This document shows positions 12,071 to 35,602 of a stretch of 64,000 nt of DNA, one piece after another. A program made the position numbers and the translations under genes. Source of the stretch: Lactarius indigo (Eukaryota; Basidiomycota; Agaricomycetes; Russulales; Russulaceae); contig JAFKAC010000004.1 in assembly GCA_025766275.1 (NCBI GenBank), positions 124,001 to 188,000 of the forward strand, given 5' to 3'. The notes under the pieces were generated by a model, which was not told the origin of the DNA, searched no databases, and was given only the letters and a program-made list of their open reading frames with translations. Each line of letters opens with the position of its first letter. Positions within the stretch are counted from its first letter, which is position 1.

Positions 12071-12358
12071 CAGCCAATGATCTGCCATGACTTTCATAAC
12101 TCATGGGCCATCCGATGGGAAGAACCCCTCATAACTCATGGGCCAACTGACGTCGGCCGACGCACAAAATTCTTCTGGAATTCATGGGCCACCCGATGTC
12201 AGTTCCGAAGTAGGAATTGCTAAAGGAAGTAGCAATATTTCCTTTCATAATGGAAGAATCAGATTTCCGGGTCATTTCCCGAAACAGATGAATAAACACC
12301 CATTCATTTCCTGAAATGGAGGGATCATGACCCATGTTACTTCCTGAAATGGGGGTAC
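12071..12358 (+). repeat. KDZ left terminal inverted repeat
   Basis: Matches the reverse complement of 35314-35602 over about 288 bp with only scattered mismatches by eye. The tips read CAGCCAATGATC on the left and CACATAATGATC on the right, so both start CA. The repeat holds three spaced copies of a CATGGGCCA motif and the palindrome GACGTCGGCCGACG, which are candidate transposase contacts. Confidence 0.93.
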
Positions 12359-12389
12359 CTATACAGATGCCCAGAATCCAGTCAGGAGA

Positions 12390-14080
12390 GATCTCACAGA
12401 AGGTGGGCCTCATGGAAGCTTACTTTCCCATCATGGGAAACTCAACAGAAGCTCTTATTCCCAGGATGGAAGCTATGACGGAAAGTAAGTTTCCCATGAT
12501 GGTAGACTTCATGGAAACTCAGTTTCCCGTGATGGGATACTCAGTTTCTGTGAAGTGCTCCGTAATGGGACAATCATGAGAACGATCACAGAAACAGTTT
12601 CCCGTGACAGGAAAAGTCACAGAAGGACAGTTTCCCGCGATGGGAAACTACATGGAACCACATTTTCCTGTAACAGAAAGATTCATGGAAACACGGTGTC
12701 ATGTCACAGGAACAGTAACGGAAACTCGCTTTCTCGTGACGGGAATATTTATGGAAACTTCATTGCCCGTCACAGGTTAAGTCATGGAAACCAAGGTTCC
12801 CGTTACAGAAATACTCACGGAAACATATCTTCCCGTGACGGAAAGACTCACGGAAACCTATCTTCCCGTGACGGAAAGACTCACGGAAACCTATCTTCCC
12901 GTCACAGGAAGGTTCATGGAAACTCAGTCTCCCGTCACGGGTTAAGTCACGGAATCTAAGGTTCCCGTGACGGAAAGGCTCACGGAAACATATATTCCCG
13001 TCACGGGAAGATTCACGGAAACATATCTTCCCGTGACGGAAAGTCTCACGGAAACATATCTTCCCATCACAGGAAGGTTCACGGAAACTCAGTCTCCCAT
13101 CACGGGTTAAGTCACGGAAACTAAGGTTCCCGTGATGGAAAGGCTCACGGAAACATATATTCCCGTCACGGGAAGATTCACGGAAACATATCTTCCCGTG
13201 ATGGAAAGTCTCACGGAAATATATCTTCCCGTCACAGGAAGGTTCACGGAAATTCAATCTCCCGTCACAAGTTAAGTCACGGAAACTGAGGTTCCTGTGA
13301 CGGAAAGTCTCATGGGAACATATCTTCCCGTCACGGGAAGGTTCACGGAAATTCAATCTCCCGTCACAGGTTAAGTCATGGAAACTGAGGTTCCCGTGAC
13401 GGAAAGTCTCACGGGAACATATCTTCCCATCACGGGAAGGCTCACGGAAATTCAATCTCCCGTCACAGGTTAAGTCACGGAAACTGAGGTTCCTGTGACG
13501 GAAAGTCTCACGGGAACATATCTTCCCATCACGGGAAGGTTCACGGAAATTCAGTCTCCCATTACGGGTTAAGTCACGGAAACTGAGGTTCCCGTGACGG
13601 AAAGACTCACGGAAACATCTCTTCCTATAACGGGAAGATTCAAGGCAATTCAATTTCCTGCCATGGGAAAAGTCACGGAAACTGAGTTGTCCTCAACGGA
13701 AATATTTACAGAAACATATCATCCAGTGACAGGAATATACACGGAAACTAAGTTACCCATCATAGGAAACATGACTGAACCTGAGCTTCCTGTCACAGGA
13801 AATATCACAACAACTGAGCTTTCCGTGATGTGAAACTTCACAGCAAATGATATTACAGTGATGGAAAACCTCGTGGAAACTGAGTGTCCCACCACAGGAA
13901 TATTCACAGAAACTCACTTCCTATTACTGGAATATTCACGGAAACTGGGTCTCTCATAATGGGACAATTCACGGAAAGTGAGGTTGCCATCATAAGATAT
14001 TTCACAGAGAGTGAATTTCCTGTCACGCAAAATTCACTGAAGCTGAGGTTCCCTGTGCAGGCGCCTCACTGAAACTCAAG
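12390..14080 (+). repeat. Left sub-terminal array of 33-bp repeats with higher-order structure
   Basis: Tandem, partly palindromic units of about 33 bp alternate CACGGAAAC-type and TTCCCGTGACGG-type half sites. Two units are perfect adjacent copies near 12829-12895. The marker GTTAAGTCA recurs at about 12776, 12941, 13105, 13271, 13370, 13470 and 13568. Spacing is about 165 bp (five units) and then about 99 bp (three units). Edges are degenerate. Because 33 is a multiple of three, long repetitive open frames arise on both strands; I do not regard these as genes. Sequence from 14081 to 14399 shows no gene. Confidence 0.88.
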
Positions 14081-14399
14081 TTCCCATTATCGGAGACATC
14101 ATGGAAGGTACTCCCTTTACTGTAAGACAGTCTACAGCTCTCCATTTTCATATAGACTCCCATATATTGGAAGATGATGTACATGAATCAGTCTTTCTCA
14201 AATGGACAAGCAAATATTCATATGGTTTCCAGAATGGATAATTCAACAACCACAGGTTATTAAATTTCTACAAAGGTATCACTGTATCACTAATTGCCTC
14301 TCTGAAGGTATGTTGGATCCAGTCCACCGGAACCCCTGCCAATATCTACATTCCTTTATAATGATCAGATCACACAGTATATGTCTTTACTGTGCTTAC

Positions 14400-16332
14400 T
14401 TACCTGGCTTTATCTGTCATCTTGACCACTCGCTTGACTCGTCCTTGCTGGGGCTTGGGCACACCAGGGTTGTTATATGGCACAGATCCCACTGGAGGTC
14501 CTGTCTCAGTCCTTGGATGTTTCCGAAATGTTTCCGCCCTTGATATGCTCAATGGAGGAGGATGCAATGATTTGCTAGTGGCTATAAAATAGTATGCATG
14601 AGTTTGTATGGCCATAAGAGAAATGGTAAGCTGCTCACTAGGAGCAGATGTCTGTTCAGCCTCCCTATTTCTACTGAGGGCAGATGAAGATGGCGATGGT
14701 GGAAGAGGTGGGGTCACAGTTGGAGATTGTAAACCATTGATTTCATTTGAGAAGTCTTCCTCTTCACTGCTAGTGTCTGACTCAGACTCATTGGAATCTG
14801 AGCATCTCTGTGTCTGCTGTGGATTCTGTATCCGCTGTGGATTCTGTATCTGCTTCGGATTCTGGATCCGCTGTACAGCCTGATCTCTATCAGTAAGTAG
14901 CTCACAGGATGAGTTCCAGATCAATGGAATTAATCCTTCTTTCTCGCGTTGCCTCCAGTGGTCTAGCAGCCTGAACACCTGAACTATACGGAGCTTTGAT
15001 GGATCCACCCATGGAAATCCAGTTGGGAAGCATTCCTCCTCAATCCATGCAGCTGGATCACTGCAAACTTTGCTCCAAGGGATAGTTGCTTTCTTCCTAC
15101 CAGAGATGAATCCTAACTCATATGTGTTATCATAGAACTGTAAAGGGAATATCCTTAACTCACTGATATGAGCATTACAATAATCCCTAAGAGCTGACTG
15201 AACGACCTTTGCTGAATAGCCATCATCTAGGGTAATGGAAGGAATTTCAGGTTCCCCATCTGAATCCACAACAATCTTCACTTTGTTCTTGAGTGTCTTT
15301 GAATGTTCCGCAGGGATAACTTGGTCATGCTCTATACTATGAATATGAGATAATGTTGATGGATGTGTGGAAATGTGACAAACCGGGTCCAAAGCACTTC
15401 CGGCTGTATTTCATCCACTCCTGCCAGACCATGGCATTTCTCCAGTCTGGGCAGAAGTCCGAAAAGGACATTCCATCATCCAGAACCCTGTTCCAGTCAT
15501 CCCTACAAATATGTGGCAATGTAAAGGTAGTGCTGCAGCTGGATACATCTTAGGAAGACTTACATTGAAGCTCTTGGGTTTCCGTCCTTGTCTGCATAAG
15601 CCACCAGAACAATTGAGCGCATTCCACATGTCTTGAATAGCTGTGTTTGGAAGTCCCTAACTATCTGGCCACGGAAAGCTGCTTGAGCCATTCTAACAAG
15701 GTGTATTATGTGTGTGGATCATGAATACATGGGTGGAAACTCACTTGGCTTGGATATCCCTTGGGGGTCTGTCCTCTGACCACTCCTTTGCAAGTTCGAC
15801 ATATGGTTCTTGTTCCTCTGTAGTCAGCTGTTTCCAAAGCATTGTTGTTGCATCCTGGAGAGCTCCTAAGAATGCCTGAGATCCAGGAACACCACCGGAA
15901 ATCCTCTGTGCAAGTTCCATAATCTCTTCCTTGTTCTCATGGTAGAATGCATTCCGGGCTGACCACTTCCGAGTAAACTTGATAAGTTGACGATGAGGAC
16001 GGGAATAGTGATTGTAAAACCAGGTTCTGATTTTCTGGAGCCATATGTATCAGTGAGCCTTTACATGGATTAACTCTCAATGCACATACCCTTTTAGCCT
16101 CCTTTTTATCAAAGCCAGTATTTGGAGGCCTAAGGGCATACAGGTCTCCCATAGCCCTCTCAAGGATAGTCTTCCGTGTCTCTGTATCAGCCTTTTGGAA
16201 CTCTTCCACATACCCCTTCAAGATGGTGGCATCCTGACGGGTTAGGGAAAAACCTTTGTCTGAGGCATGGATAGATGGAGAAGAGATCTCAGACTCCCCA
16301 GCTGAGCTCCCGGATAGATGGTCGGATTGCAT
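14400..16332 (-). CDS. KDZ cargo protein with HMG-box-like conserved region (570 aa, 5 exons)
   Basis: Exons (minus) 16332-16090, 16034-15745, 15692-15564, 15502-15384 and 15331-14400. All four introns are 52-61 nt GT-AG and the phases close to a single frame of 571 codons. The N-terminus (residues 1-80) is Ser-rich and then helical. A conserved block follows with WFYNHYSRP, KWSARNAFYHENK, WKQLTTEEQEPYVELAKEWSED and FKTCGMRSIVLVAY. Its W..L..EE...Y...A..W pattern recalls an HMG box, and I have seen this arrangement in many basidiomycete hypothetical proteins. Residues about 330-400 (WNRVLDDGMSF, WQEWMKYSRKCFG) also look conserved. The C-terminus has QNP repeats, a Ser/Glu-rich acidic stretch and a basic tail. 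A DNA-binding or accessory role in transposition is inference only. The gene is intact. Confidence 0.75.
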
Positions 16333-16689
16333 AGCTATGATATTAGGACGTAAGAATGTGTGGGAGATGTATATGGTGTTTGTCGAATTGTACCACATAT
16401 GGTGAGCCTTAAATAGACTGGCTAGTGTCTTTGAGTTCCAGTTCCGTGAATGCTGGATTTGCAGATGATTTAGGAAACATGTCTGGGGGTATCACATTGA
16501 AACAATATGTCTGTTGTGTGAGATATATGTGAAACCACTTATTTTGATATGTGCTTCATGTTTAGTTTCAATGCAGGTAGATGACAGCAGACGGGTGTAT
16601 CTACAGATGTAGCAAGGGGGTAACATTTCCTGGGATGGAAGCGATATATCCATGGACAGAGATGATGTCTGTGAATGGAAGTGATCTTT

Positions 16690-16945
16690 CCGTGGACGGA
16701 AATGATCCTTCTATTGGTGGATGCGATCCATCCATAGATGGACGAAATCCATCCGTAGACAGATGCAATCCATCCATAGACGGATGCAATCCATCCGTCG
16801 ACGGACGCAATCCATCCGTCGACGGATGCAATCCATCCGTCGACGGATGCAATCCATCCGTAGACGGATGCGAGCCATCCATAGACGGATGCGAGCCATA
16901 CGTAGACGGATACAATCCATCCGTAGACGGATGTAATCCTTCCTT
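16690..16945 (+). repeat. 21-bp palindromic minisatellite
   Basis: About twelve tandem units of 21 bp with consensus GACGGATGCAATCCATCCGTC. Each unit is an inverted repeat (8-bp arms, 5-bp loop). Looser 24-bp-spaced GATGGAAGTGAT units continue to about 17100. The whole gene-free stretch 16333-17274 lies between two minus-strand cargo genes. The repetitive open frames across it, in several phases, follow from the 21-bp period and are not supported as genes. Confidence 0.88.
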
Positions 16946-17274
16946 AGATGAGACGGAAGTGAACTTACTGTGGAAGGAAGTGATATGTTACGGATTAGAA
17001 CTGATACTTGAATGGAAGTGATACGCCCTCAGATGGAAGTGATGTTTCACCGGATGGAAGTGATACTTCCTGAGACGGAAGTGATGCTTCCTTGTACAAT
17101 AGAATGTGCTTCCTCTGATGGCGGAAACATTTGCCATGGGATCCATTCGTAACCTTAGTTCTGTATGGCTCACCCGTCCACACATATGTATGAGGTATTT
17201 ACTGGTACATAGAAAGTGTGCGAGCTCTTTTTGAATACATGTGTGTTTCTCAGTACAGACTCCTTGTAACTACG

Positions 17275-18694
17275 TCACTTGTCCCGGCCGCTGGTCTTGT
17301 AAATCCCATCCCTAATATATGAGATATCAGAATAGAGGTCCATTACGACGCCCATGAGTATCGTGCATCTCTCCATGAGATCCCCAGAGTGATCGGATGG
17401 GTCAAGCGAAAGCAGCCCCCTGTAGGCAGCAGGGAAATGGCGCCCAGATGCGACATGCGGATATGGTGCCCTGGCCACCTATGGGAGAGTGTAAATGTCA
17501 GGAAACCGCAATCCACAAGACACCACTCACATATGCAACAGGTATAAGATTACTCTCAGGAATACTTATGATTTCCTCTTCCGGCGGACTGGAATCGGTA
17601 TCCATCTTCTCCCCACTGTGAGAACCTTCCACCGACCGTGGGCTATCAGGAATGCGTGCTGTAGGAGGGGCTGTAACATCCTGTATGTCGATGGGAATGG
17701 GTATAGCGCTCCGTTCCTGTATTGGACTATCTGGTAGCTCAAGGGCTTCGTGGACCTGCGATCTGTCAAGAACGGTCACTGCCTCAGGTCTATCAGTTAC
17801 ATCGTCCTCGTGGAGTACGGGTTCTGTGTGTACGACTTCCTGCAAGATGTCGCCAGCGCCCTCTTCCGCCGGACCTGTAGAACCATGAGATTCTTGCATA
17901 GTTGGAGCCGTTCCGGGACTGCGCGCGGTTTCCTGTGACCCGTCGGAAATGGCTGCGACGCCAAGGGTGGATGTTGTCTGGGTGTATGTGACTCAAAATA
18001 ACTCGCCATGAACGTGTGCCATCTTGGGACTTACAATGCTCTGAGCTATGTCAAGGACATCAGCTATCTCTGGATCCGCGGCTTCCTGTAGCTCACAGGA
18101 AGGTCCTGCAGCGTGTGGAACTGGAGTAACCCGCAATGGGTCAGTGGCGGGTTCCGTCTCAGATGCAGGTGCATCCGGGGTGGTATCCTGCCTCAGTGTT
18201 GCCTTTCGCCTATGGAGGAAGGCAGTACGGCGGGCATGGTGAGTTGGTGGAGACGGATCGGACTCAGTGGGCTCCACTAGTATTGTCGCTGACACATCCA
18301 TTGTGTTCTGCGGTAAATGAGAGTTGTTTGCGATGGAGGGGAAGATGGGGCATACCACTGGCGAAGGCAAGGAAGGTGCTACGGAAGTTTCGATTGTAGC
18401 AGGAGGCACAGCAGTAGCCGGACTGCGCTTCTTGAGGAAGCGGTAGCATGTGGAAGGCCGCACCTCTACTGTGGAAGATGGTGTGGCCTGTCCGGGTTCT
18501 GAAGGATGGCCAGATGATATGGTAGAGAGTGGGGGTCCATGCCCGGATGGATCGCCCTCAGTGGAATGCTGTCCGGATTGCACACGGGAAGGGGGAGGGC
18601 GTGGAGGCATCTTTCCAACGTATGCCCATTGACCTGGAAGCCCCTGTTTCAGTATAAATAATTTACCAACTAGGGTCGGACCTGTATGCGACAT
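17275..18694 (-). CDS. KDZ cargo protein, Pro/Ser/Thr-rich, 436 aa, 3 exons
   Basis: Exons (minus) 18694-18035, 17977-17531 and 17478-17275 join in phase through 57- and 52-nt GT-AG introns to give 437 codons. The product is low complexity and probably disordered: a basic, Pro-rich N-terminal half (MPPRPPPS, FLKKRSP, FLHRRKATLRQD), then an acidic Ser/Pro/Glu-rich middle. The C-terminus looks more ordered (MERCTILMGVVMDLYSDI). I recognise no domain. It shares an upstream region with the divergent gene at 19136. The start could instead be the Met codon near 18611. Function unknown. Confidence 0.6.
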
Positions 18695-19135
18695 TCTCTA
18701 CTGATCTATGGGCTGTAGGTGATTCTACAGTGGTGGGTTTCGAAATACGCGTCGACCATGTCATCAAAAATGTCTTCTGATACATTTCTAGCAGACCTAT
18801 ACAATATGACGCTAGTTTACTAGGGCCTCGACTCTGCACTCCAGGCCTTGGATTGCCGATAGGCTTCTGAATGATGCAAGACATCAATAGTTGACACACG
18901 AGGCGAGGCCATGTGATCAGTAATGTCCGAAATTCGGATAAGTTGTCTGAAACTGTTGGATGCCATCGGGTTCCATCGGGTTCCATCGGGTTCCATCGGG
19001 TTCCATCGGGTCCTATCTAGCTCCATTCGGAAACTGGTCGTCGGGCATGGGAGGCTTCCCACGAGCAACGGAAAATACTGCGTGTCCGTCCCCCCCTCCC
19101 TGTAGTCCGTTTCCACACATTCCCTCGCTTCCACT
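18695..19135. promoter_or_regulatory. Shared upstream region of two divergent KDZ cargo genes
   Basis: 441 bp between head-to-head gene starts. It contains an 11-bp tandem repeat (TTCCATCGGGT, about four to five copies at 18962-19012). A bidirectional promoter role is inferred from the layout only. Confidence 0.45.
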
Positions 19136-20991
19136 ATGCCCCCACAGCACAGGATATATGTGGACAAACTTACTGCAGATGAAAAAGCACTGATGGGCAC
19201 TGCTATCCGCTTCGACCTTGCGCTCAGGTATAGGGAGAAGAATATCGAATCTGTGGACGACGATTGGTACAGGACGTGCATTGCTTCGGAATTGGTAAGT
19301 GCTAGTATCCCTTAATATATTGAACTGCACGCTAATTTGATGTTTTCACTATATAGGACGATGTAAATGAGATATTTGGGAAGTACTCAGACGGAACGAC
19401 GGAGCCGCGTATGCACCCGATAATCACATATGTTGCTGAAGAATGGGATAGCGCTGCGGACAGTTCCAGGGTGCCGGATATCGCTGCACTCAAGCTCGAA
19501 GACGTCTCCAAGCTATGCGACGACGGTGCAGCGAATAATCCGTCGTGGAATAGCCAGCTTAATATGAAGACGCTTAATACACTCATTGGGCTTCTGAATC
19601 CCTCGGATCGGTGGTGGCTTCCAGCTCTGCGTTCGGATGTGGATGATATTCCAGGTATGTTACACATCTTCCTCTCACTCCCGAAACAGCTATTCCCATT
19701 TTCCAGACGCTCCCCATGTAACGCCACCTAAGGCAGGGTCCAAAGCATCTGGAAAGCGTCCCGCGCCACCCCCTCCTGATACGGGTTCTGACAGTGGTGC
19801 AGAGCCCTCCGGCCCAGTTCCTGCATCCGTTCAGGATGCTACCACGGTCAATGAGGATGTTGAGATGCAAGAGGATGATGGGGGAGAAACGCCGCGCAAG
19901 CCGAAGAAGGCCACAAAGCGTGTCGCAGTCCAGTCCCCCACAGCAGCCCATCGTACTACCTGCCGCCGGCGCACAACTACTGGCGCAGGCGACGTCCCTT
20001 CTTCTCCAGAGCCCGAGCCCATGGAACTCGTTCCCGTGCACCCAGTCCCCATGGAACCAGTGTCCGGTGTCCCTCCGCACGCTGCTGTTCCCACGCGCAC
20101 AAAACCCGTTAATGTGACCATTGTGAGTTCTGATGAGGCTGAGGATCTGCAGGGATCTCGTCGATCTCGTCGACGACGTCTAAGTATCATTGACGATTCC
20201 GCCTCGGAACTGGAAACTGGGCCGCCGGATCCGGTAAGTCCCTCATGGCTCTATTCCTGTTTCCATACTCACAGTGTGCTACAGCGCGCATGTGGCCCTT
20301 GCAAGGCTGCAAACCACAAATGCAAGCCACAACCCGCCGGGAGGAAGGGAACAGCATGCAGGTGGTGTACGAAGCGGAGGCACAAGTGTGTCCCCCGCCC
20401 TCAGTGGGTGGCGACAGGGAAGGAGGACGGGAAAGGGAAGAAAAAACAATCACTCGGTGCGTTCCCATTTGTCTGATATCATTGTATTATGCTAACGGAC
20501 CCACAGACGAAGTCGTGCAGAGGTTGGACGACATGTCCAACACTCAAGAGGCCCATATTGCGGCCATGCGCGACTTCGTGCACAATACGGACGTCATCCT
20601 ACGTGCCCTGTGTACCCAAGGACCAGGTAATGTTAATATGTCGACCCTATGCCTCCGGACGCCTGCTGTTCCGCTTTTCACGGAACCTGGACCGTCCACA
20701 CCCAGCGCGTCCTCTGTTGCCAGTGGCACCCCCTCAACAGTTTCCAGCATGGGGCTTGGTTGTATGATGATCAGCAATGCGGGTGTCGCTGGCCCTTCCG
20801 AAGTCCCACCCGACCGCCCACAGGCCCCAGGTACGTCGTAACTCGCATCCACATTTCCCGGATGCATATTCATATTTTCCGCCTTCCTAGCATCTCGCCA
20901 GAGTCTCCGGAATCGCTCAAGCCGTGCGGGAACCTCTAGTGGAGCACAGTCGAGGGTCGGGTCGCGCCAATCGTCTTGCGGACGTACCTAG
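19136..20991 (+). CDS. KDZ cargo protein with Zn2Cys6-like cluster (526 aa, 6 exons)
   Basis: Exons 19136-19294, 19357-19654, 19707-20233, 20285-20456, 20507-20830 and 20891-20991 join in one frame of 527 codons through 50-62 nt GT-AG introns. Residues 1-150 are a compact Trp- and Asp-containing domain I do not recognise (IYVDKLTADEKALMGTAIRF; NPSDRWWLPALRSDVDDIP). A disordered Pro/Arg-rich linker follows. The cysteine cluster has spacing C-x2-C-x6-C-x11-C-x2-C-x6-C, with basic residues inside (CKAANHKC, CTKRRHKC). A helix that may be a coiled coil comes next (DEVVQRLDDMSNTQEAHI). The spacing fits the fungal binuclear zinc cluster, so DNA binding is plausible, but similar clusters occur in uncharacterised basidiomycete proteins. 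The last intron is the least certain; without it the frame ends at 20841. Confidence 0.72.
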
Positions 20992-21977: not shown

Positions 21978-22292
21978 ATGTCTGACATCCAGAAGGCATC
22001 AAAAGAGAAGGATATTGATATGTCCATAAAGGATGTCCATCTTACCTTTACCAGGACCTATACTGGGGTTTCCGATCCAGAAGATGATGCTTCATCTGGT
22101 CTGGAATCCTTTGATGAAGATGATATGTATGGATCGGACAATGGAGATGACATCATTTGCAATATTCCCGACACAGATGAAGAATCACAGGAACTTGAAC
22201 ATTCCTTGGATAGGGTATGTCCTCCACCCCACTCCCGACTTTCGGAGATCTCATGTGTTATCCAGCTCAATGAGCTCATTAATGCTTCCCAG

Positions 22293-23066
22293 TGTCACGG
22301 ACGCTCTATTTTTGCCTTATTTTTCCGTATTTTTACGGATTTATTTGGTGAAGATATGAGACTCCAACGCTGTGTCAAACATCCAAGTCCTTATCATTAG
22401 ATATGATAAGATGGTTAGTCACGTGACGCCAACATGTGCACCCTAAGCACGTGACCCTGGGATAGTAACTTCCTTATTAGATGTTACCTCTTTAGGTCAC
22501 TTTCCTCATTAGTATGGTAGTTTCTCATTGGACGATAAGCAGGGAAGGTTCTAGATAGTTCTAGACTACGTTGTCATAGGGTTGTGACTCATAGATAAGG
22601 ACACGTCATCGTTCTGTCAGCGTTAATGACTGTGCATCAGTCAGCACCGTAAGATAACGCTATTATTAGACACGACGCGTCAGCGTCTGACTCATTACTA
22701 TTACACTCACCTTTAGTAACAAGGTTCAGTAGTAATTCGAACTCAGCCGCAGCATAGTATATAAACCCCCATGTAGCGTCCTGAGTGGAACCAACTTGTC
22801 CTCTTGGTTCTCCACTCAGGTGCGCATTTCCTTTGTACTTCCCTTACTTCTCCAATGTTAACTTGTCCTCTTGGTTCTCCACTCAGCGTGCCACAGCGTG
22901 ATCACCTGACCTTTGGACTTGTATAAAGTCCTCAAGTGGGTCTACTCTCCGTTGTGACTGTACGTTCGGCGCGTGACTTGTCTCCGCGCTAGGCTTGGGT
23001 GTGCTACCGATTCAGTTCACTTACCTCACCTTGGTCTAGTTGTACGCGATAAGTCATACCGCTACA
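22293..23066 (+). repeat. Gypsy-B2 5' LTR (774 bp)
   Basis: TGTCACGG to CGCTACA, with TATATAAA at 22758-22765. A 27-bp segment starting AACTTGTCCT is present twice (22793-22819, 22860-22886), each ending in CAG. The first is followed by GTGCGC, so the pair frames a possible 67-nt intron. Confidence 0.96.
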
Positions 23067-24411: not shown

Positions 24412-25638
24412 ATGTCCGCCGCCGCCGCCGCTCCACCTACTCCCACAGCCCCTGCTCCGCCCCCAACTCTTAACGACTGCCTTCGCCTTATCAGCGATCT
24501 AGGCCAGGTAGTCGGTATACTTACACAAAAGGTCACGGACTTGACCGCACAGGTTTCAGCAACCGTGGCCAAGCCCAGTACCAAGCATAAGGAAGTAGTG
24601 GCCCGTCCCAAAGCATGGGATGGGAAAGGCAACTCTACAGATGCCCGTCACTTCCTTGCAGCCTTCCATAATTGGGCAGGCTCACAGCAGGACGCTATGA
24701 ACACCTGGGACCCGGCCCAGGGCATGTACTTCCGGGCAGAAGACCGCTGGATTATGGCGGTTCTTAACCTTATGGAAGGGGAAGCCAAGTCATGGGCTCT
24801 CCCTTACCTTGAACAACTTCAGTCCAACAATATTCCGTTTGGTAGCTCTTGGGACGAATTCGTCAAAGAGTTTAACCGACGGTTTTCGCCCCTCGATACA
24901 ACAGAAACAGCGAGGGAGCAGCTGAAGAAGACAAAACAGGGCCGCGGATCGGTTGCAGAGTACCGGTCCGTGTTCGAACAATACTCTGGACAGACTGGAT
25001 GGTCCAAAGCAGACCTCCGCACCCGCTTCTACGACGGTCTCTCAGACCGCGTAAAAGACGCCTTAGCCTTGACGGACAAGGCCCACGTCGACTTTGACGA
25101 CCTCAAACAGGTCTCACAATCGCTAGATCAGCGACTGAGACAGAGGGACTCAGAGAAGAAGGGCGGTTCGTCCAGCCAGTCGATCTTGCCTGCAGGCAAG
25201 CCGTCCGATCCCGACGCGATGCAAGTTGACGCATCACGACAGCAGGGATCCGGCACGAGCAAGCCCGCATCCGGCGGAAAGACCCGGCAAGACTATCAAA
25301 AACACATGCAAGGCAAGTGTTACGGGTGTGGTTCAAAGGACCACTCAAAGAAGGATGGAAAGCACGAACACGACGTGTGCCACCATTGTCAAAAGGTCGG
25401 ACATAGGGCACCCGTCTGCATGCTCAAATTCATGGGGAAACCCGCCAAAGCCAAAGCTGCGGCCAGTAGTGAGGAGACCCCCTCCCAACCTTCTTCCAGT
25501 CAGTCGGCGGCTTCAACCGCCCAAACAAGCAATTCCGCACCGCCCAAAGCCAATACGTCCCAGGCAGACGTGGCAAAGTTATTGGCGGCGCTCACAGCCC
25601 AACAAGAGCAAATCAATGCTCTCAAGGCGGCTTTTTAG
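24412..25638 (+). CDS. gag: Gypsy-B2 gag
   Basis: 408 codons from the first ATG; the frame is open upstream. It has an Ala/Pro-rich start, the capsid domain (RFLAAF-like DARHFLAAFHNWAGSQQD; FVKEFNRRFSPLDTTETA; RTRFYDGLSDRVKDAL) and a Ser-rich linker. Paired zinc knuckles follow (CYGCGSKDHSKKDG and CHHCQKVGHRAPVC), then a Gln/Ala-rich end. It should form the particle shell and bind element RNA. TAG at 25636-25638 ends it in the string GCTTTTTAG, where pol continues in the -1 frame. Confidence 0.92.
   Translation: MSAAAAAPPTPTAPAPPPTLNDCLRLISDLGQVVGILTQKVTDLTAQVSATVAKPSTKHKEVVARPKAWDGKGNSTDARHFLAAFHNWAGSQQDAMNTWDPAQGMYFRAEDRWIMAVLNLMEGEAKSWALPYLEQLQSNNIPFGSSWDEFVKEFNRRFSPLDTTETAREQLKKTKQGRGSVAEYRSVFEQYSGQTGWSKADLRTRFYDGLSDRVKDALALTDKAHVDFDDLKQVSQSLDQRLRQRDSEKKGGSSSQSILPAGKPSDPDAMQVDASRQQGSGTSKPASGGKTRQDYQKHMQGKCYGCGSKDHSKKDGKHEHDVCHHCQKVGHRAPVCMLKFMGKPAKAKAAASSEETPSQPSSSQSAASTAQTSNSAPPKANTSQADVAKLLAALTAQQEQINALKAAF
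25630..25638 (+). promoter_or_regulatory. Possible -1 frameshift at the Gypsy-B gag stop
   Basis: Gag ends GCT TTT TAG. Slipping one base back at TTT reads TTA and continues about 70 codons without a stop to the first pol ATG at 25851. The -1 frame is also open across this 212-bp gap in Gypsy-B1 (site 6629-6637) despite several substitutions. The string is not a canonical heptamer; slippage with a stop codon in the A site is the proposed route. Confidence 0.5.
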
Positions 25639-25850
25639 ATCCAGGGGTAGTCAGAGCTGCGGACTCCCCCTGTAAAACAGATACGGTTGACTCGGCCTTA
25701 TGTAGTTGTAAGATATGCCTACGATCTCGCCTCGTTTCGGACTCGGACCAATCTGTAATTCCTACGCACCACTTTGTTTCTGCCTGTAATGTTGATAGTA
25801 GTGATGACTCGGCTTCCTGTTCTGATTCTACATCTACATCTGCCTCGGAG

Positions 25851-28800
25851 ATGAACAATAGTATTAGTGTTCCGATTGCTCCACAATTTGTAGCAGCGCC
25901 GCAAGTGATGATTTCTGATGCAGCGCTTTCTTCATGTATTATTCCCGAAACAAAAGATAGCAGATCTCATTTTCATATTTCTGTTGAATTACAAGGATGT
26001 CATCGTACTGTAAAAGTAGCAGCCATGGTAGACTCCGGAGCAACTTCGTTGTTCCTGGACAAAAAGTACGCTGACCGCCACAAGATGTTGCAGGTTCCGC
26101 TAGAGCATCCCATTACTCTATACAATATAGACGGGACACTCAATGAAGCAGGCAGTATCACCCATAAAGTAACACTCGTCCTGAAAGTCGGCCCTAGTGC
26201 AGAAAAATTCGACTTTATGGTCACTTCACTAGGCCCAGAACGAGTTATATTGGGACTGCCCTGGTTAAGACATCGGAACCCGCACATAAATTGGCAGGAA
26301 GGCACTATGCGTCTCAACTCCAGCGCTGAAATAGCTGCACCGGAGATAGAGATAGAGGTGACGCGCATTATGGCGAACCGAATGGAACGCCGCCGTCTCC
26401 TTGCGGAGAAAGTGTTGGATACAGTTTCAGACCAGGTTTTCTGTTTAGCTGGTTTCACGTACTCTCAGCAGATTGCAGAGAAAGCGATAACCTCTAAACC
26501 TAAGAAAACCTTCGAAGAAATGGTCCCTGAACACTATCGTGACTTCGCAAAAGTTTTCTCTGAGGAGGAATCCCAGAGACTCCCTGAGCACCAACCATGG
26601 GACCACGCCATAGACCTTGAACCAAACGCAGTTAAACATTGGAAGGTCAAGACGTACCCCATGTCACCCAGCGAGCAAGTAGAATTGGACAAATTCTTAG
26701 ATGAACATATAGGGAAAGGATATTTAGTGCCATCTAAGTCACCTATGGCATCCCCTGTATTCTTTATCAAGAAAAAAGACGGCAAGCTCCGTCTGGTCCA
26801 AGACTATCGGCGTCTTAATAAAATTACCATTAAGAACCGATACCCACTTCCACTCGCTGCCGACATAATTAACAGGCTTAAGGGAGCTCAATACTTCACG
26901 AAATTCGACGTTCGATGGGGATATCATAACATCCGCATCAAAGAAGGCGACGAATGGAAAGGTGCTATTGTCACCAATAGAGGTCTATACGAGCCTAAAG
27001 TCATGTACTTCGGCATGACTAATAGCCCCGCCACTTTCCAAGCCTTAATGAACGCCGTCTTTGCCGATCTTATCGCACAGGGAGAGGTCGCCGTATACAT
27101 GGATGATATTCTCATCTATAGCAATAACCTTAAACACCATCGCAAGATAGTGCGCGAAGTGTTAACAAGGTTAGAGCAATACGACCTCTATCTCAAACCT
27201 GAGAAGTGCGATTTTGAAAAGCAAGAAATGGAGTATTTAGGGATGATTATCCGTCCCGGAGAAGTGCAGATGGACCCTGGCAAGGTCTCTGCAGTAAAGG
27301 AGTGGCCAACCCCGACTACGCTCAAAGAAGTAAGAGCATTTATCGGGTTCGCCAATTTCTATAGAAGGTTCATTAAGGATTTCGCGGCCATTGCCCGACC
27401 CCTTCATGACCTTACTAAGAAAGACACTCCTTGGATATGGCAGTCTGAACAGCAGAAAGCCTTTGACCTGTTGAAGGAACGTTTCGTACAAGAACCTATT
27501 CTTAAGGTTTACGATCCGAACCTCCCAACTAGAGTTGAGGTTGATGCTTCAGGATTTGCTACTGGCGGTATTCTAACTCAGAAATACCCGGACGGTCTCT
27601 GGCACCCCATTGCGTATCGCTCACAGTCTATGAGCAAAGAAGAACGCAATTACGAGATTTACGACAGAGAAATGCTCGGCTTAATCCGGGCCTTAGAGGA
27701 TTGGAGACATTTCCTCGAAGGCATTTCCTTTGAAGTGATCACCGACCATAAGAATATGGAATGGTGGGCAACCATGAAGGACTTAAACAGACGCCAAGCT
27801 AGATGGGCGTTATTCTTAAGTCGGTTTGCCTTCAAAATCACTTATAAGAAAGGAGAATCCATGCAAGCCGATGCATTAAGTCGTTTCTCACGAGACCAAA
27901 TCCGAGATTCTGAAGATAACCGCCAGGTTCAGGTATTAAAACCTGAGCACTTCCTCGCTGCCGCTAAAGCGCACTTCGTCCCCGAAATAGATTCCTTAGG
28001 GAGTCGCATTAAGCTCGCATCTATTAGAGAAGCTGAAGTCATAGAGGGTCTTAAAAGTATATCCAAGACCGCTCCTAAAGCTCTCACAGATGGCGTCTTA
28101 ATGTGGGAAGAAGAAGATGGGTTCATTTACCACCGGGGTAAATTATACGTCCCAAATGATCGGGCCCTTCGCAGAGACGTAGTAAAGTCCTGCCACGACT
28201 CGGTCACTACCGGACACCCTGGAAAGAATGGAACCATAGAGCTAGTTAGTCGCTACTATTGGTGGCCACGCATGTCAGGCTTCATTGCCTCATACGTAGA
28301 AGGATGCGATCGATGCCAACGTTATCGCAAAGATCTGCACCCCAAAGCAACCATTCAGCCGCAAGAAGTCCCTGAGGGACCTTGGCAGATAGTAGGGATC
28401 GATCTAATCGGTCCACTGCCTATGTCACGTGGAAAAGATATGATCTTAAACATCGTAGATCATTATACCAAACAGATTCATCTGTTTCCAGTGACTTCTC
28501 AGATTACGGCTGATGGGGTGGCATCCATCTACTTTGAGCAAGTCTTCCCTCTGCACGGGATCCCTCGCAAAGTCATAAGCGATAGAGGACCCCAATTTGC
28601 AGCGCGAAGTATGCGTGCCCTTTATAAGCGACTCGGAATAGACGCAGGTCTCACTACAGCCTATCACCCTCAAGCTAATGGACAGGTTGAGCGCAAAAAT
28701 CAAGAAGTTGAAATATACTTGCGCATGTTCATTAGCAAGAGACAGGATGATTGGGCAGACCTGCTTCCTACCGCAGAATTCGTAGTCAATAGTAGACTCA

Positions 28801-29522
28801 ACTCAACCACGGGTCACACCCCCTTTGAGCTACTATACGGCTTCACGCCGGACTTCACAATTCCTGCTGGTAGACCTACGGGTATTCCATTGCTCGATAA
28901 GCGCCTTCAGCACTTAGTTTCCGCACGTAAGGATGCAGAAGCGGCTCTACGCCTAAGTAAAAGGCGAATGCAGACAGACGTTGAACAAAGGACTAAGCCA
29001 TACTCCTTTAACGTCGGGGATAAAGTCTGGTTGCAAGCTAAGCAGATAAAGATACATCAGCAGTCGTCCAAATTGGGACCTAAGCAACTAGGCCCATTTG
29101 AAGTCACTAAAGTCATCAGTGACGTCGACTACAAGCTTGCACTACCCCCTGCATTACGGATCCATGATGTATTTCATGTAGATCGCCTCTCTCCTTACAA
29201 AGGAAACGAAGTCAATGGGCTTACGCCTCCACCACCCGATCCAGTAACGGTCGAGGGAGAAGAAGAGTATGAAGTTGACCACATAAGAGATTCTAAACTC
29301 TTTGGTCGTACTCTTAAATACCTCGTCCGTTGGAAAGGATATGGTGAGGGTGAGGACACTTGGGAACCAGCTAAGAATCTAGCGCATGCCCCCGACGCGG
29401 TTAAGGAATTCCATTCCTCAAACCCGGGCGCACCTAGAAAAATAGCGGCTCTAATTTACGCGTCCTTACCTTGGCAAGCTCATCATGTGGATACATTGGC
29501 CAACGTGGACGTCGACCCTTAA
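25851..29522 (+). CDS. pol: Gypsy-B2 pol (protease-RT-RNase H-integrase-chromodomain)
   Basis: 1223 aa from the first ATG, uninterrupted. Retropepsin VDSGA lies at about residues 60-64. RT has FIKKKDGKLRLVQDYRRLN and YMDD at 416-419. RNase H motifs are VEVDASGFA (about 564) and TDHKNMEWW. Integrase has an H2C2 finger (HDSVTTGHPGKNG to CDRCQRY) and a catalytic triad D851, D911, E947 with 35 residues between the last two. A chromodomain lies at about 1137-1190 (YEVDHIRDSKLFGRTLKYLVRWKGYG, WEPAKNL). The chromodomain assigns it to the chromoviruses, whose integrases are known to target marked chromatin. All catalytic residues look intact. Confidence 0.97.
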   Translation: MNNSISVPIAPQFVAAPQVMISDAALSSCIIPETKDSRSHFHISVELQGCHRTVKVAAMVDSGATSLFLDKKYADRHKMLQVPLEHPITLYNIDGTLNEAGSITHKVTLVLKVGPSAEKFDFMVTSLGPERVILGLPWLRHRNPHINWQEGTMRLNSSAEIAAPEIEIEVTRIMANRMERRRLLAEKVLDTVSDQVFCLAGFTYSQQIAEKAITSKPKKTFEEMVPEHYRDFAKVFSEEESQRLPEHQPWDHAIDLEPNAVKHWKVKTYPMSPSEQVELDKFLDEHIGKGYLVPSKSPMASPVFFIKKKDGKLRLVQDYRRLNKITIKNRYPLPLAADIINRLKGAQYFTKFDVRWGYHNIRIKEGDEWKGAIVTNRGLYEPKVMYFGMTNSPATFQALMNAVFADLIAQGEVAVYMDDILIYSNNLKHHRKIVREVLTRLEQYDLYLKPEKCDFEKQEMEYLGMIIRPGEVQMDPGKVSAVKEWPTPTTLKEVRAFIGFANFYRRFIKDFAAIARPLHDLTKKDTPWIWQSEQQKAFDLLKERFVQEPILKVYDPNLPTRVEVDASGFATGGILTQKYPDGLWHPIAYRSQSMSKEERNYEIYDREMLGLIRALEDWRHFLEGISFEVITDHKNMEWWATMKDLNRRQARWALFLSRFAFKITYKKGESMQADALSRFSRDQIRDSEDNRQVQVLKPEHFLAAAKAHFVPEIDSLGSRIKLASIREAEVIEGLKSISKTAPKALTDGVLMWEEEDGFIYHRGKLYVPNDRALRRDVVKSCHDSVTTGHPGKNGTIELVSRYYWWPRMSGFIASYVEGCDRCQRYRKDLHPKATIQPQEVPEGPWQIVGIDLIGPLPMSRGKDMILNIVDHYTKQIHLFPVTSQITADGVASIYFEQVFPLHGIPRKVISDRGPQFAARSMRALYKRLGIDAGLTTAYHPQANGQVERKNQEVEIYLRMFISKRQDDWADLLPTAEFVVNSRLNSTTGHTPFELLYGFTPDFTIPAGRPTGIPLLDKRLQHLVSARKDAEAALRLSKRRMQTDVEQRTKPYSFNVGDKVWLQAKQIKIHQQSSKLGPKQLGPFEVTKVISDVDYKLALPPALRIHDVFHVDRLSPYKGNEVNGLTPPPPDPVTVEGEEEYEVDHIRDSKLFGRTLKYLVRWKGYGEGEDTWEPAKNLAHAPDAVKEFHSSNPGAPRKIAALIYASLPWQAHHVDTLANVDVDP

Positions 29523-29534
29523 GGAGGGGGGTGA

Positions 29535-30308
29535 TGTCACGGACGCTCTATTTTTGCCTTATTTTTCCGTATTTTTACGGATTTATTTGGTGAAGATATG
29601 AGACTCCAACGCTGTGTCAAACATCCAAGTCCTTATCATTAGATATGATAAGATGGTTAGTCACGTGACGCCAACATGTGCACCCTAAGCACGTGACCCT
29701 GGGATAGTAACTTCCTTATTAGATGTTACCTCTTTAGGTCACTTTCCTCATTAGTATGGTAGTTTCTCATTGGACGATAAGCAGGGAAGGTTCTAGATAG
29801 TTCTAGACTACGTTGTCATAGGGTTGTGACTCATAGATAAGGACACGTCATCGTTCTGTCAGCGTTAATGACTGTGCATCAGTCAGCACCGTAAGATAAC
29901 GCTATTATTAGACACGACGCGTCAGCGTCTGACTCATTACTATTACACTCACCTTTAGTAACAAGGTTCAGTAGTAATTCGAACTCAGCCGCAGCATAGT
30001 ATATAAACCCCCATGTAGCGTCCTGAGTGGAACCAACTTGTCCTCTTGGTTCTCCACTCAGGTGCGCATTTCCTTTGTACTTCCCTTACTTCTCCAATGT
30101 TAACTTGTCCTCTTGGTTCTCCACTCAGCGTGCCACAGCGTGATCACCTGACCTTTGGACTTGTATAAAGTCCTCAAGTGGGTCTACTCTCCGTTGTGAC
30201 TGTACGTTCGGCGCGTGACTTGTCTCCGCGCTAGGCTTGGGTGTGCTACCGATTCAGTTCACTTACCTCACCTTGGTCTAGTTGTACGCGATAAGTCATA
30301 CCGCTACA
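29535..30308 (+). repeat. Gypsy-B2 3' LTR (774 bp)
   Basis: Same length and, by eye, the same sequence as the 5' LTR. It is preceded by the polypurine-like tract AAGGAGGGGGGTGA (29521-29534) and followed by TSD CCCAG. Confidence 0.96.
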
Positions 30309-30784
30309 CCCAGAGTCTGTGTGTCGACCTTGAGAACATCTATATTCTGGCAGTGGAATTGTACAATATTTGGAACAGGGGAGATGTGTCTGAGCATGAT
30401 TCCCAGCAGAGTTCAGATCCCTTGTCTGTCCTGCATAGGTCAGATATACTAGAGGTGGAGGCACATGGTATGGATATCGAAGCGGAAGTAGAAGGAGCCT
30501 CCACTGGCAGATTTAGTAAATAATGATATGCAGGATGCAATGGCCCACATCTGATAATCCAGTATGCATTGTTCGGATATTGTAGAACTCCGGATGGCCT
30601 AGAATACTATGGAACCGCTGATTTGTATGATCCCTGATGTACACTCTACAAGGGCACATCTGTAGAATATTCCGCAACTCATTTCTGCAGTATGCACAGG
30701 GTATTTAAGACATCATCCAAATCATACAAAGACACCCAGCTTCATCATCTCTATACATATTCCCTATCCACTGCTATACAGGAA

Positions 30785-33700
30785 ATGCCTCGCACTCGTG
30801 ATGTTATCATTCCTGAAACTGTTGAAGGCATTGAGGAGGTCATCATCAAGCACACCAAATCGAAGCGTGGTACAATCCGGACAACGGAAAAGGTTGTTCC
30901 CGTTGTCCATCCACAGAAGGAGCGATCCGGACAGCCTTCACGGGCACGCCAGAAGGATGCACACCCGCAGATTCCATCAGCTAGTGCCAAAGGTTCTGGG
31001 AGGCCTCTCCACATCCCTGGAGACCCACAGATGGACCCATACATGGAAGAGCAACAGTATGACTTCCACAATACAGAAGAGGATGGTCAGCTACAACCCG
31101 ACTCAACAGCCACCCAACAGGCCACTGTATGTCTCACATTTATTCATATCATGTAGCTATCCTGATCAGATGTAGACTCCAATGAAACAGTGGGTGGAGC
31201 TCAGGGATAGATATCTCCATGTTCTCCTGGAGATGGAAGGTCGGGGAAGATCTGACAAGTGTTCCATGTGCAGCAAGAAACCTGAAATAAAGTGTCTGGA
31301 TTGCTTTGGACCACTGTTGTTTTGCAAGGACTGCTGTCTTGAAGCTCACAGGAACTCCCCATTTCACAGACCACTACTATGGAATGCAACCCACTACACT
31401 CCAGTAACTCTGCACTCCCTCGGATTTGTATTGTGCATCGGGCATGGTGGTATGCCATGTCCACGAACAGTTGAGGTAGTTATGGACACACATATCTTGC
31501 AATGTCTTGTAGTGCTCATATTACCTTAGGGAATCAGAGCTGCACAAGCAGTCTCCACTAGTAGAAAGAGGAGTTCCGGGAAGAGACGTGCCCACTCAGC
31601 ATCTCTTGCATCTGTTTCCGAGGGTCCTGATTCTCCGGATAATTCTGGCCAACTTCCTACACCTCGCGAGACTCCACAGCCAGAAGGCCCATCCACTAAT
31701 CCGGATATCTCTGACAGACTCTTTGACTCCCTGGATATGTCTCCAGATTCTAATGACAGTGATTCCAGCAGAGTGCGGACAGCGGACTCTGGTAATCCAC
31801 TGTTCACTGTTGTTGACAGAAGTGGAATCTTCGACATGGAGGTAGTATTCTGCATTTGCCCAGGAATGGACAATATTGGCGAGCAGCTTCTCCAATCCGG
31901 GCTATTTCCATCCACATTCCGGCAAATAGAAACATTATTCACATTCACAGTATTGGAGGACTTCATTCTGGATAACCTGGAATGCAAGACCACAGCCCAG
32001 CAGTATTATTCAAAGCTGCAAAGCATGACAAGCAAGATGTTTCCCAACAATGTGCAAGTATGTCTTCATCCATACATACACACACTCCCATCCACCCACA
32101 TCCAGATCTAATAAATGTTTACAGAACCGTTACAAGCAACTTCTGAGAGCATCTCGCCAGTGGCGTGACCTCAAGGGCAGGATGGAAAGTGGGCTTGGAC
32201 ATCAGTCAGAAGGAGAGAGCTGTCCGGATGGAGCCATGGCAATATTCTGCCCTGCATGCCCACAGCCTGGAATCAATCTTCCTAAGGATTGGAAGACACT
32301 ATATCCTCCGTATGTCATTTATGAACTGGCATCTCCACATACTCATACTCCCCATTGAAGTGACCAGCTTATCCGGACATTTATCATGGACGGAAACTTT
32401 TCCGCAGAACACATGCGCCATAGATCCAGGGACAAGGATGTTGCATTATCAGCAGGAATGGCATTCATGGCCAACCCTGATTCCTACAAGGCTCATCTCC
32501 AGTGCGGAAAAGAAATAGCCCAAGTATGTGATGTCTTCCTTACCCGGATCCTTTTATCTAATGGCCTTATAGCCCAGCACATGTAATACCTACAGAGCCA
32601 TTGAACAGGCAAATTCTAGTAGGACACACCTTGATGTCACAGGGATTGGTGCAACTGCCTGCTGCCATGGGTTCTTTGTTCCAACATCTGTGGTGGATTT
32701 CCAGAAAGGAGAGAGGTATGCATGTTCTCTTGGAATCCCTATATCCGGAAGTGATGTACCATTTCCGATAGGCAAATCAATATGGACTACAGCATATGCA
32801 AAGCACTCTCATACAATATGGAGGACATCCCTGTGGCTCTTGTCATGTATGACATCATGTGCCAATATAGAGTCCACTTCCAGGAGAGGGTCAAATGCAG
32901 TCCGGAACTCTCACTACCAAGCTCACTGACACTCCGGATGGGAATTGGACTGTTCCATATCCATGGGCACCAGGATTCTTGCTTGCCAAGGTTTTCTCCC
33001 AGCTACATTCCAGGAGCAAAGCAGGTTGATGGAGAAATAATCGAGACCTTGTGGGCACCCCTGAATAATATCTCTCGCAGCATCCGAGGGATGTCCTTGG
33101 ACCATAGGCAGGAGGTATTGGATTCCCACATCAATTACTCCAACTGGAAGAAGCTGGTTAGGATTGGTATGTATTATCCATCCGGACTATCCCATATGTT
33201 AATACAACACTAATGACACTTGTATGTGAAAGTCCCATCACTACTAAAGCGGTGGAAGCAACTGGACTCTGGCTTGGATGCCAGTGCAAAGGCATATAAG
33301 GCACTCAATCAACACTTCAAGCATAAATCTGAACAATGGCTGAAGGATGATGAGGGTGCTCAACAGGAGAGACAAAAAACCCCATCTTCCATGGATATCT
33401 ATGACACTGTGAAGGAAAAGGGTGTGTGGTCTGAATCTGAAATCTTCCACCCATAATTGATGAATGTCTCCAGCCCCATCTCGGGCTGCTATCCAGCGAC
33501 AGCTTACTGAGGAAGAGAGCAGGGACCATTCCATCCAGGGTGAGACATCTTGGATTTCATGTGGGCTTAAGATACAGGAATTACAGTATGTCCACAAGGA
33601 TCCTTCCTAACTCATTGAATAATGACCTACCCAGACTTGCAATCCGCTATCAGCTCCGGAGTCAGGGATCAAGGCTCACTATAGAAGATTCACAAGTCCT

Positions 33701-34724
33701 TGAGAATAAGCGCAATCGCATACAGAAGCTTATTGATATGTTTGAGCACCAGGCAGACACCTTCCTACACCATCATCAGGATACAGATGATGTTCCTGTA
33801 TGGTCTATGGGGGACTATGCTGAATATGACAATGTGGATGACATAGATGGCTCCGGAAATCCTGGCCTTGGACCTTCTGGCCATTACCATGGCGCCCCAA
33901 CTTCTGATGGCTCGGGAATGGAAAGTTCCAATGTTGAGGACATTCCCCTCCTTCTTCCGTCATCCCTCGGATGGGAGTGGTGTTCAAGCCGCGGTATCAA
34001 GTCTCTTGCAATGAAGGAAGCTAAGCTACGCTATGCTCAGGCAAATGATTCCATCCACAGGATCCGCCTTGCTTTAGGATTCAAGTCTGCACTCTTCCGA
34101 ACACAAGTGCGGGATGCCCGTACACAAAAGACAAAGACCCGTGCATGGACTGCAGTTCATGGTGTTGATAGCACAGTCCATGAGCATGCCCGGAACTATT
34201 GCATGGCACGGGATGCATACCTCAGGGTCCAGGAAGAATCCGGAGACTTTCCGGAATTACCACCCCTCCACCCCACAGATCTTTGCATCAGCACAACCAT
34301 CCTTGGAGCAGCACAGGTGGGACAATGCAATAAACAGCTCCCATGGATATGGAGCTTTGGGGTCTCTGAAAGGCATGATGGAACTTGGATGGATGAGTGT
34401 AGGCCAACATCCATTGCCATATGATGAATGCTTACAGATATTTCAGTTAACCAAGTTCATTGGCTTCGTGCAAAAGCTCAGTTTGAGAGGTGGAAGGAAG
34501 AACAACACAGTATTCATAATGAAGCCATATGGATTCCGGCTTACTTTCATTCCAAGGCGGAGCATTGGAAGACCAGGATGGATATGGCAGCACAGGTGCT
34601 GCTTCCTGGCCATGAAGCATATGCATCTTGCCAAGCACATGCATGGGAGGAACTATCTAGGAGTTCTGTAAAGGCACTAATCCCAATCACCTCTTCTCCA
34701 TTAAAACATTTAGAGACTATGTAA
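30785..34724 (+). CDS. KDZ transposase, intact, 11 exons, 1132 aa
   Basis: Exons 30785-31126, 31176-31475, 31530-32057, 32125-32309, 32361-32523, 32573-32715, 32772-33166, 33233-33421, 33474-33585, 33635-34398 and 34447-34724. Ten GT-AG introns of 48-67 nt close the phase exactly (1133 codons). A basic linker is followed by a CxC2-type zinc module (residues 115-180: CSMC, CLDC, CKDCC, H172, PFH). FCPACPQPGINLP follows at about 431-443. The RNase H-fold core has likely catalytic residues D462 (MDGNFSAEH), D581 (YDIMCQY) and E642 or E645 (DGEIIETLW), and the family's HIHGHQDSC block. A C-terminal helical part carries VHWLRAKAQFERW. One oddity: family members usually read CaRHG where this has CCHG, one residue shorter. 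The start may alternatively be 30692. Confidence 0.93.
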
Positions 34725-35313
34725 AGGTGTATCCTAGTTCTGATCTATTCCCATAAACTGTAAATCAATGATATCACTCCACTTATTTCATGTATCACAA
34801 TGGAAGGCAATCTCTACATTACAGGAATTACAAGGGAAGTGATGCTTCCATCATAGATAACTCATGGAAGTTGGTTATTATGTTATTTCTTGGATTCCAG
34901 AAAGCTACTGAAGGTGATTTTGGTAAGTTAAACGGAAAGCTAAGACTTCCACTCCTGGAAGTGACACAAGTTTTGATTCCTCCATTTCTGGAAATAATAT
35001 GTGTTAGGATTTCTGTTCAGGAAACACATGTATTGATTTCCGCATTTCGGGAAAATGACACAGGTGTTAAGGTTTCCGTTTGGGAAATGATAGGGTTTTG
35101 ATTCCCCATTTCCGGAAATGATTTGGGTTTTGATTTCCTGTTTCCGGAAATGATACGGGTTTTTATTTCCCCATTTCCGGAAATGATACGGGTTTTGATT
35201 TCCCCGTTTCCGGAAATAATTTGGGTTTTGATTCTCCCGAAATGGGAGAATGACATGGGTCCATCTCAGGAAATAACACAGGTGTTAAATCTTATGTTCT
35301 GAGAATGGGTTTT
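34725..35313 (+). repeat. Right sub-terminal array with TTTCCGGAAA palindromes
   Basis: Downstream of the transposase. Regular units of 32-33 bp carry TTTCCGGAAATGATACGGG-like motifs at 35109, 35141, 35174 and 35207. Looser GGAAATGA/GGAAATAA units run from about 34860. The period matches that of the left array. No gene is present. Confidence 0.85.
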
Positions 35314-35602
35314 GGTACTCCCATTTCAGGAAATAACATGGGTCATGATTCCTCCATTTCAGGAAATAAATGAGTGTTTATTCATCTGTTTCGGGAAATG
35401 ACCCGGAAATCTGATTCTTCCATTATAGAAGGAAACATTGCTACTTCCTTTAGCAATTCCTACATCGGAACTGACGTCGGGTGGCCCATGAATTCCGGAA
35501 GAATTTTGTGTGTCGGCCGACGTCGGTTGGCCCATGAGTTATGAGGGGTTCTTCCCGTTGGATGGCCCATGAGTTATGAAAGTTATGGCAGATCATTATG
35601 TG
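35314..35602 (-). repeat. KDZ right terminal inverted repeat
   Basis: Inverse of 12071-12358, ending ...GATCATTATGTG, and followed immediately by TTGTGGT and the resumed Gypsy-A2 gag. Confidence 0.93.

Follow-up and report, generated by a model that had tools for sequence, protein, structure and literature searches.

A recently multiplied, TET-less KDZ transposon with long terminal inverted repeats in Lactarius indigo

We analysed a 64,000-nucleotide stretch of the Lactarius indigo genome (assembly GCA_025766275.1, contig JAFKAC010000004.1, positions 124,001 to 188,000; hereafter the window, numbered from its first letter) and the 90.3-Mb assembly around it. The window holds a KDZ element at 12071–35602, a TET-less variant of KDZ transposons with long terminal inverted repeats (TIRs) that multiplied recently. 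Judged from its sequence and those of its relatives, it very probably belongs, as one copy among others, to a family of DNA transposons of the KDZ superfamily that was active recently. The new part would be a cassette of two genes, here called beta and gamma, in the slot that TET, a gene for a DNA-demethylase-like dioxygenase, takes in other KDZ elements, together with palindromic repeat arrays specific to the family; a functional link between cassette and arrays is offered as a hypothesis.

The ends of the element, which spans 23.5 kb, are exact to the base pair. A repeat search over 11500–36200 found inverted arms of 301 nucleotides at 12076–12376 and 35297–35597, with 279/301 positions matching (93%). 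Together with the outermost five bases these form TIRs of about 306 bp at 12071–12376 (plus strand) and 35297–35602 (minus strand), where the initial annotation had ends of some 288 bp. The five outermost bases are unmatched, reading inward CAGCC on the left and CACAT on the right, and the same arrangement recurs in the other ends read from its family, F1. Comparison of the flanks shows a target-site duplication (TSD), TTGTGGT, at 12064–12070 and 35603–35609. Alignments of independent copies begin exactly at 12071, and those of copies with an intact right end stop exactly at 35602. The host site is a retroelement gag gene, which the element splits and which is uninterrupted in its paralogues. 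When the two flanks are joined with a single TSD, nine of the 11 gag paralogues fetched align almost fully through the junction, and in the remaining two (L059 and L060) the junction is covered by an alignment over part of the query. Because the ends are defined exactly by other copies and the gag paralogues span the junction, the element and its insertion are real. The complete KDZ transposon first annotated here, with inverted ends, a TTGTGGT duplication and a split gag, is thereby borne out.

KDZ transposases are RNase-H-fold DDE enzymes. The transposase gene lies at 30785–34724 on the plus strand and has 11–12 modelled exons. Gene models were obtained by comparing F1 copy I with a second family, F2; the same procedure also produced shorter antisense segments, so the models serve as a guide only, and some modelled introns that lie in frame within open reading frames (ORFs) are doubtful, including a 72-bp in-frame 'intron' of the transposase at 31551–31622. 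In the window copy the model runs for 1108 amino acids to a terminal stop with no internal stop and GT..AG at every intron, in agreement with the full transposase annotated earlier. It includes a zinc exon (31176–31475), the KDZ-associated cysteine cluster CxC2 within 31623–32057 (PF18803, E=1.8e-20, 73.5 bits against a cut-off of 27) and the KDZ transposase domain within 32772–33166 (PF18758, E=1.3e-29, 103.9 bits against a cut-off of 26.6). The enzyme would cut at the CA..TG ends and insert with a 7-bp stagger.

By its ends and genes the element is a member of F1, a family with at least 15 closely related copies in this genome. The left TIR has at least 42 matches in the assembly (40 of 154 candidates were scored), and, as had been anticipated, the search recovered other insertions that share its ends and genes and have 7-bp TSDs. 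Eight F1 copies were retrieved in full with both ends read, and seven of them show 7-bp TSDs, as do all seven further copies read at both ends. Overall, 14 of 15 two-ended copies carry a 7-bp TSD, every one different, beside the same 18-base termini; this count leaves out copies E and J and four single ends, with one usable end each. Copy G (C267:58055-73545) interrupts the gene for the transposase of a related KDZ element and is bordered by a 7-bp duplication; its flanks match that split transposase over residues 263–814 on the left and 816–1104 on the right. Of the 17 other F1 exons that encode the KDZ domain at 98% identity or more, ten give protein 100% identical to that of the window copy. 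Copy D (C288:136618-152812) has a mosaic-like appearance relative to copy I, with middle stretches diverged by up to 16% and a transposase region diverged by 0.6–2.6%.

The terminal motif CANNNAATGATCTGCCATNA occurs 127 times in the assembly with one mismatch allowed, against a single occurrence of its reversed control. The 100 hits listed include 26 facing pairs, 14 of which enclose an F1 transposase and one an F2 transposase. The pairs without either comprise eight at 1.8–4.9 kb and three at 16.8, 29.7 and 36.9 kb, and inspection by eye against the list of KDZ matches placed no other KDZ match inside these 11. All 20 F1/F1b and seven F2 KDZ matches have a terminal-motif end within 35 kb among the hits listed. 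Since 14 of the 26 facing pairs hold the F1 transposase, we read the eight short elements as candidate non-autonomous relatives. In part, these short transposase-less elements are the case raised beforehand as evidence to the contrary, TIRs at unrelated distances without cargo. The copy of the sister family F2 at C168:47190-61911 has termini of the F1 kind and an inverted repeat of 130 bp. In this one copy the terminal pentamers stand the other way round with respect to the genes, with CACAT on the HMG side and CAGCC on the transposase side.

The whole 23.5 kb had been taken as the element, and this does not stand. A Ty3/chromovirus-type long terminal repeat (LTR) retrotransposon, foreign to the KDZ family, is nested at 22293–30308 on the plus strand. 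Its 774-bp LTRs (22293–23066 and 29535–30308) are identical at 774/774 positions, CCCAG is duplicated on either side (22288–22292 and 30309–30313), and it encodes reverse transcriptase, RNase H, integrase and chromodomain domains. This later insertion accounts for about 8.0 kb and leaves a KDZ element proper of about 15.5 kb; F1 copies without large inserts measure 14.6–16.2 kb. In seven other copies (B, C, D, E, F, G and I) the sequence continues across the site with no Ty3 element, and in copy H a different stretch of about 6 kb occupies it; 23.5 kb was therefore rejected as the real length of the family's elements. The window copy itself sits in the gag of one retroelement and was later hit by another.

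A gene with an HMG-like exon (15744–16049) occupies 14400–16491 on the minus strand, with up to seven modelled exons spanning 14691–16347 and a 413-residue model free of stops in the window copy. A fold model of the exon (pLDDT, predicted local distance difference test score, 75.5) has HMG boxes as its top Foldseek matches, with probabilities up to 0.94. Between F1 copy I and F2, synonymous and non-synonymous codon changes number 97 and 82 in this gene and 235 and 144 in the transposase. The HMG-like gene lies upstream of the transposase within 25 kb and divergent from it in 107 of 129 KDZ matches, and upstream on the same strand in seven more. Because it is common to TET-bearing and TET-less elements, it looks like a core part of KDZ elements rather than cargo. 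Iyer et al., who named KDZ in 2014, reportedly mentioned a divergent HMG domain. The protein may bend DNA to assemble the ends.

The acidic ORF, delta (21978–22292, plus strand), corresponds to the small ORF of the initial annotation and is split in the window copy by the nested Ty3 element. Copies B, G and I keep it open over some 174 codons, and copies D and E have a stop in it. Its 66 matches comprise F1 (92–100% identity), F2 (67–71%) and other TET-less loci (44–59% over 34–57 residues); by eye, many lie just upstream of a KDZ match, and those on C13 and C253 have no listed KDZ match nearby. Delta is thus common to TET-less elements and looks like another core part.

The two other genes have a narrower distribution. 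Beta, a proline-rich gene at 17498–18697 on the minus strand, has 30 matches in the assembly, all at F1- and F2-type loci. Gamma, a cysteine-rich gene at 19357–20838 on the plus strand, consists of several ORFs with an approximate 5' exon. It has 49 matches, in F1, in F2 and, at about 43% over the cysteine region, at loci of the 88–89% group, and is complete only in F1 and F2. Beta and full-length gamma therefore look specific to F1/F2. The cysteines of gamma follow the pattern C-x2-C-x6-C-x11-C-x2-C-x6-C (20291–20389), which resembles that of Zn2Cys6 binuclear clusters, and this six-cysteine spacing is kept in F2 at 46% identity. Gamma has no Pfam Zn_clus hit and no sequence match in PDB, and a fold search with its model (pLDDT 61.7) returned no relevant match. 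Searches of the open-licence literature listed no paper in which the title or the opening of the abstract describes a Zn2Cys6-like KDZ gene, which does not prove that none exists. Of the claim that at least three other intron-containing genes accompany the transposase, two are supported (HMG-like and cysteine-rich); of the claim that the element mobilises a gene set of its own, beta and full gamma survive, while the HMG-like gene and the acidic ORF are common elsewhere.

None of the 26 F1/F1b/F2 KDZ matches has a TET domain (PF12851) within 25 kb upstream, in keeping with the lack of a TET/JBP gene initially annotated. A TET gene hidden inside the element was considered and rejected, as there is no PF12851 match there. 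By contrast, 36 of 39 matches of the clade at 58–63% identity (F6) have TET upstream; the transposase domain of this clade is about 62% identical to that of F1. As in F1, the HMG-like gene of F6 is divergent from the transposase (32 of 39 matches), and TET lies between the two. No gamma palindrome (described below) and no long TIR were found in the 13.9 kb of F6 sequence read, in which the element ends were not located, two copies being more than 99% identical out to the ends of the fetched sequence. Among 64 matches at 80–89%, TET is upstream of three: two adjoin a 62% element, and at C112, the third, TET lies on the opposite strand at a distance of 24 kb. From this gene order we conclude that beta and gamma take up the position held by TET in the other clade. 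The split between clades by gene content is not perfectly clean at one locus, where one gamma match (C1:417439) and one delta match (C1:418610) sit 2–3 kb from a KDZ match of 58% identity. TET-bearing KDZ elements also neighbour the window, at C226:192856-198724, about 5 kb past its right end, and at C226:66577-72445, about 52 kb before its left end.

Three repeat arrays (plus strand) lie within the element. A left subterminal array of 33-bp units (12458–13735) contains 14 of the 17 CGG-N12-CCG sites of the window copy, and a right subterminal 33-bp array was found by repeat search at 35033–35238. An array of 21-bp units (16719–16948) adjoins the 5' side of the HMG-like gene; it was considered as a carrier of the same motif and rejected, its spacing being CGG-N11-CCG (five sites in 16601–17100) and not N12. 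The longer palindrome CACGGRA-N8-TYCCGTG, with up to two substitutions, occurs at 26–36 sites in each of five F1 copies and at 47 in F2, and at none in 13.9 kb of one TET-bearing locus. Nor does it occur in two 2-kb flanks of other TET-less KDZ elements or in 40 kb of window sequence lying beyond the element. An exact search of the whole assembly counted 243 sites, and the reversed control gave 0. By eye, 48 of the 50 distinct sites listed (first by contig) fall in F1/F2 or in the TIR-bounded interval C4:122368-159230; of the other two, C1:479604 has degenerate KDZ fragments nearby, and C4:84672 is roughly 13 kb away from a copy with one end. For CGG-N12-CCG the counts are 17–25 in F1 and 35 in F2, compared with means of 1.2–1.9 in 60 shuffles. 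The corresponding controls are three in the TET-bearing locus (shuffle mean 1.25), 10 in the window outside the element (mean 7.7) and none in 2 kb of flank for each of two further TET-less KDZ elements.

We propose that the gamma protein binds the CACGGRA-N8-TYCCGTG sites. There is an even chance, in our estimate, that the arrays and palindromes are instead functionless minisatellites, shared by F1 and F2 through descent only, and that the cysteine motif of gamma does not bind DNA. The failure of gamma to match Zn_clus and its poor fold model fit that account, as does the close relationship of F1 and F2. Moreover, other spacings equal or exceed N12 in F1, because the array is tandem: CGG-N18-CGG reaches 38–60 there, CCG-N3-CGG ties CGG-N12-CCG in copies G and I, and N12 is the top class only in F2. 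The left-end arrays of F1 (33-bp units) and F2 (32-bp units) argue the other way, since their units differ outside the half-sites and yet keep the inverted half-sites in common, as do the genome-wide excess over the reversed control and the absence of palindromes around the TET-bearing copy. If gamma does bind, the KDZ elements of this one genome might have two alternative anti-silencing routes, TET in one clade and, in the other, a Zn2Cys6-like cassette that recognises the element's own CGG-N12-CCG arrays; we put this forward tentatively and consider it rather doubtful.

The proteins other than the transposase and the HMG-like one would influence how the element itself is expressed or silenced, and not the traits of the host. 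It is very unlikely that the extra genes are true cargo taken from the host, which the element mobilises and from which the fungus benefits, as with Starship-like elements: several genes do travel with the element, but when coordinates are compared by eye, matches to beta and gamma map to KDZ-type loci or next to the HMG-like gene of such loci and the rest are weak, the HMG-like gene is tied to KDZ transposases, and the element's own tested ORFs match no Pfam family above cut-off other than KDZ and CxC2. Metabolic, resistance or effector functions were rejected for the same lack of a family match.

The F1 copies bear the marks of strong CpG decay. Singleton differences among them number 651; C>T and G>A changes account for 373, of which 256 fall at CpG, and CpG makes up 902 of the 6093 C and G positions of the compared stretch. 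In the transposase region, four F1 copies have observed-to-expected CpG ratios of 0.36–0.38, F2 has 0.45 and a single TET-bearing copy 0.55; this sets TET-bearing against TET-less elements with one family each, and age is a confounder. CpG transitions also make up most of the differences between the two TET-bearing copies compared. TET has been viewed as countering silencing (PMC12730594), and work cited in the same paper did not detect hypermutation in Agaricomycotina. The decay is consistent with methylation and deamination of TET-less copies.

Several observations weigh against a recently active family. The empty sites are paralogous, not allelic. No TSD flanks copy C, matching 7-bp flanks are missing from the one F2 copy read (C168:47190-61911), and copies B, C, D, E and H have single stop gains in one or more genes. 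The autonomy of the window copy itself is doubtful because its acidic ORF is interrupted. The HMG-like exon scores below the cut-off against Pfam HMG_box_2 (E=0.0063), and its Foldseek E-values are weak (best 0.56). Among F1 copies the ratio of non-synonymous to synonymous polymorphism (pN/pS) is 0.40 for the transposase, 0.42 for the HMG-like gene, 0.21–0.32 for gamma, 0.46 and 0.79 for beta and 1.09 for delta (from 10 changes), against 0.65 in an antisense control. The low gamma values speak for the main reading, but none of these ratios corrects for CpG bias. Also very unlikely is an old, mostly dead KDZ family spread by segmental duplication instead of transposition, to which the CpG decay, the stops, copy C and the nearly identical outer flank of two one-ended copies (C4:97629 and C215:729538) would be suited; the differing TSDs and flanks of the two-ended copies reject duplication as the sole source of copies, and the many transposase exons identical in protein sequence also speak against it.

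F1 can be compared with several described KDZ groups. Kojima (2025) described Kyakuja elements of Agaricomycotina with 7-bp TSDs, CA..TG termini and no TIRs (PMC12730594). F1 shares the KDZ transposase, the TSD length and the CA..TG termini; in contrast, it has TIRs of about 306 bp and no TET, whereas Kyakuja-1_LB and -2_LB lack TIRs and carry TET/JBP (PMC12730594), a comparison made by features. Zisupton and the Dileera element Zisupton-1_PGr belong to the same superfamily but have 8-bp TSDs (PMC12730594). Cryptococcus KDZ1–KDZ3 resemble F1 in having long TIRs (139–241 bp, in elements of about 9–11 kb) and differ in having 8-bp or 4–8-bp TSDs and CxC1 rather than 7 bp and CxC2; the passages of PMC12810828 that describe them mention no HMG, further genes or TET gene. 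Because of these long-TIR elements, and because 90 of the 129 KDZ matches here fall outside the 58–63% clade, in TET-less groups, the lack of TET that had been taken to mark a distinct lineage is not new by itself. KDZ elements are also abundant in Marasmius, where TIR motifs are characterised in a supplement (PMC8290104).

To the left of the element, 5147–10518 probably holds a second copy of the nested Ty3 family, its ORF starts (first 40 residues) being nearly identical to those of the nested element. To the right, two long plus-strand ORFs at 39932–44671 have the look of perhaps another retroelement.

In plants, VANDAL (VANC) and En/Spm (TnpA) transposons encode DNA-binding proteins that act on the element's own repeats; VANDAL is also mentioned in PMC12730594. 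Gamma is unrelated to these proteins, and the analogous logic is a hypothesis; if it is correct, F1 would carry a sequence-specific form of self-recognition convergent in logic with VANDAL/VANC or En/Spm TnpA, and the CpG in each half-site would make gamma binding sensitive to methylation. The element offers a concrete and cheap test of such a possible self-recognition protein. In addition, TET-bearing and TET-less KDZ families are abundant in one genome with the same core pair of HMG-like gene and transposase, so that the proposed role of transposon-borne TET becomes directly testable, with methylation, CpG decay and activity as the axes of comparison.

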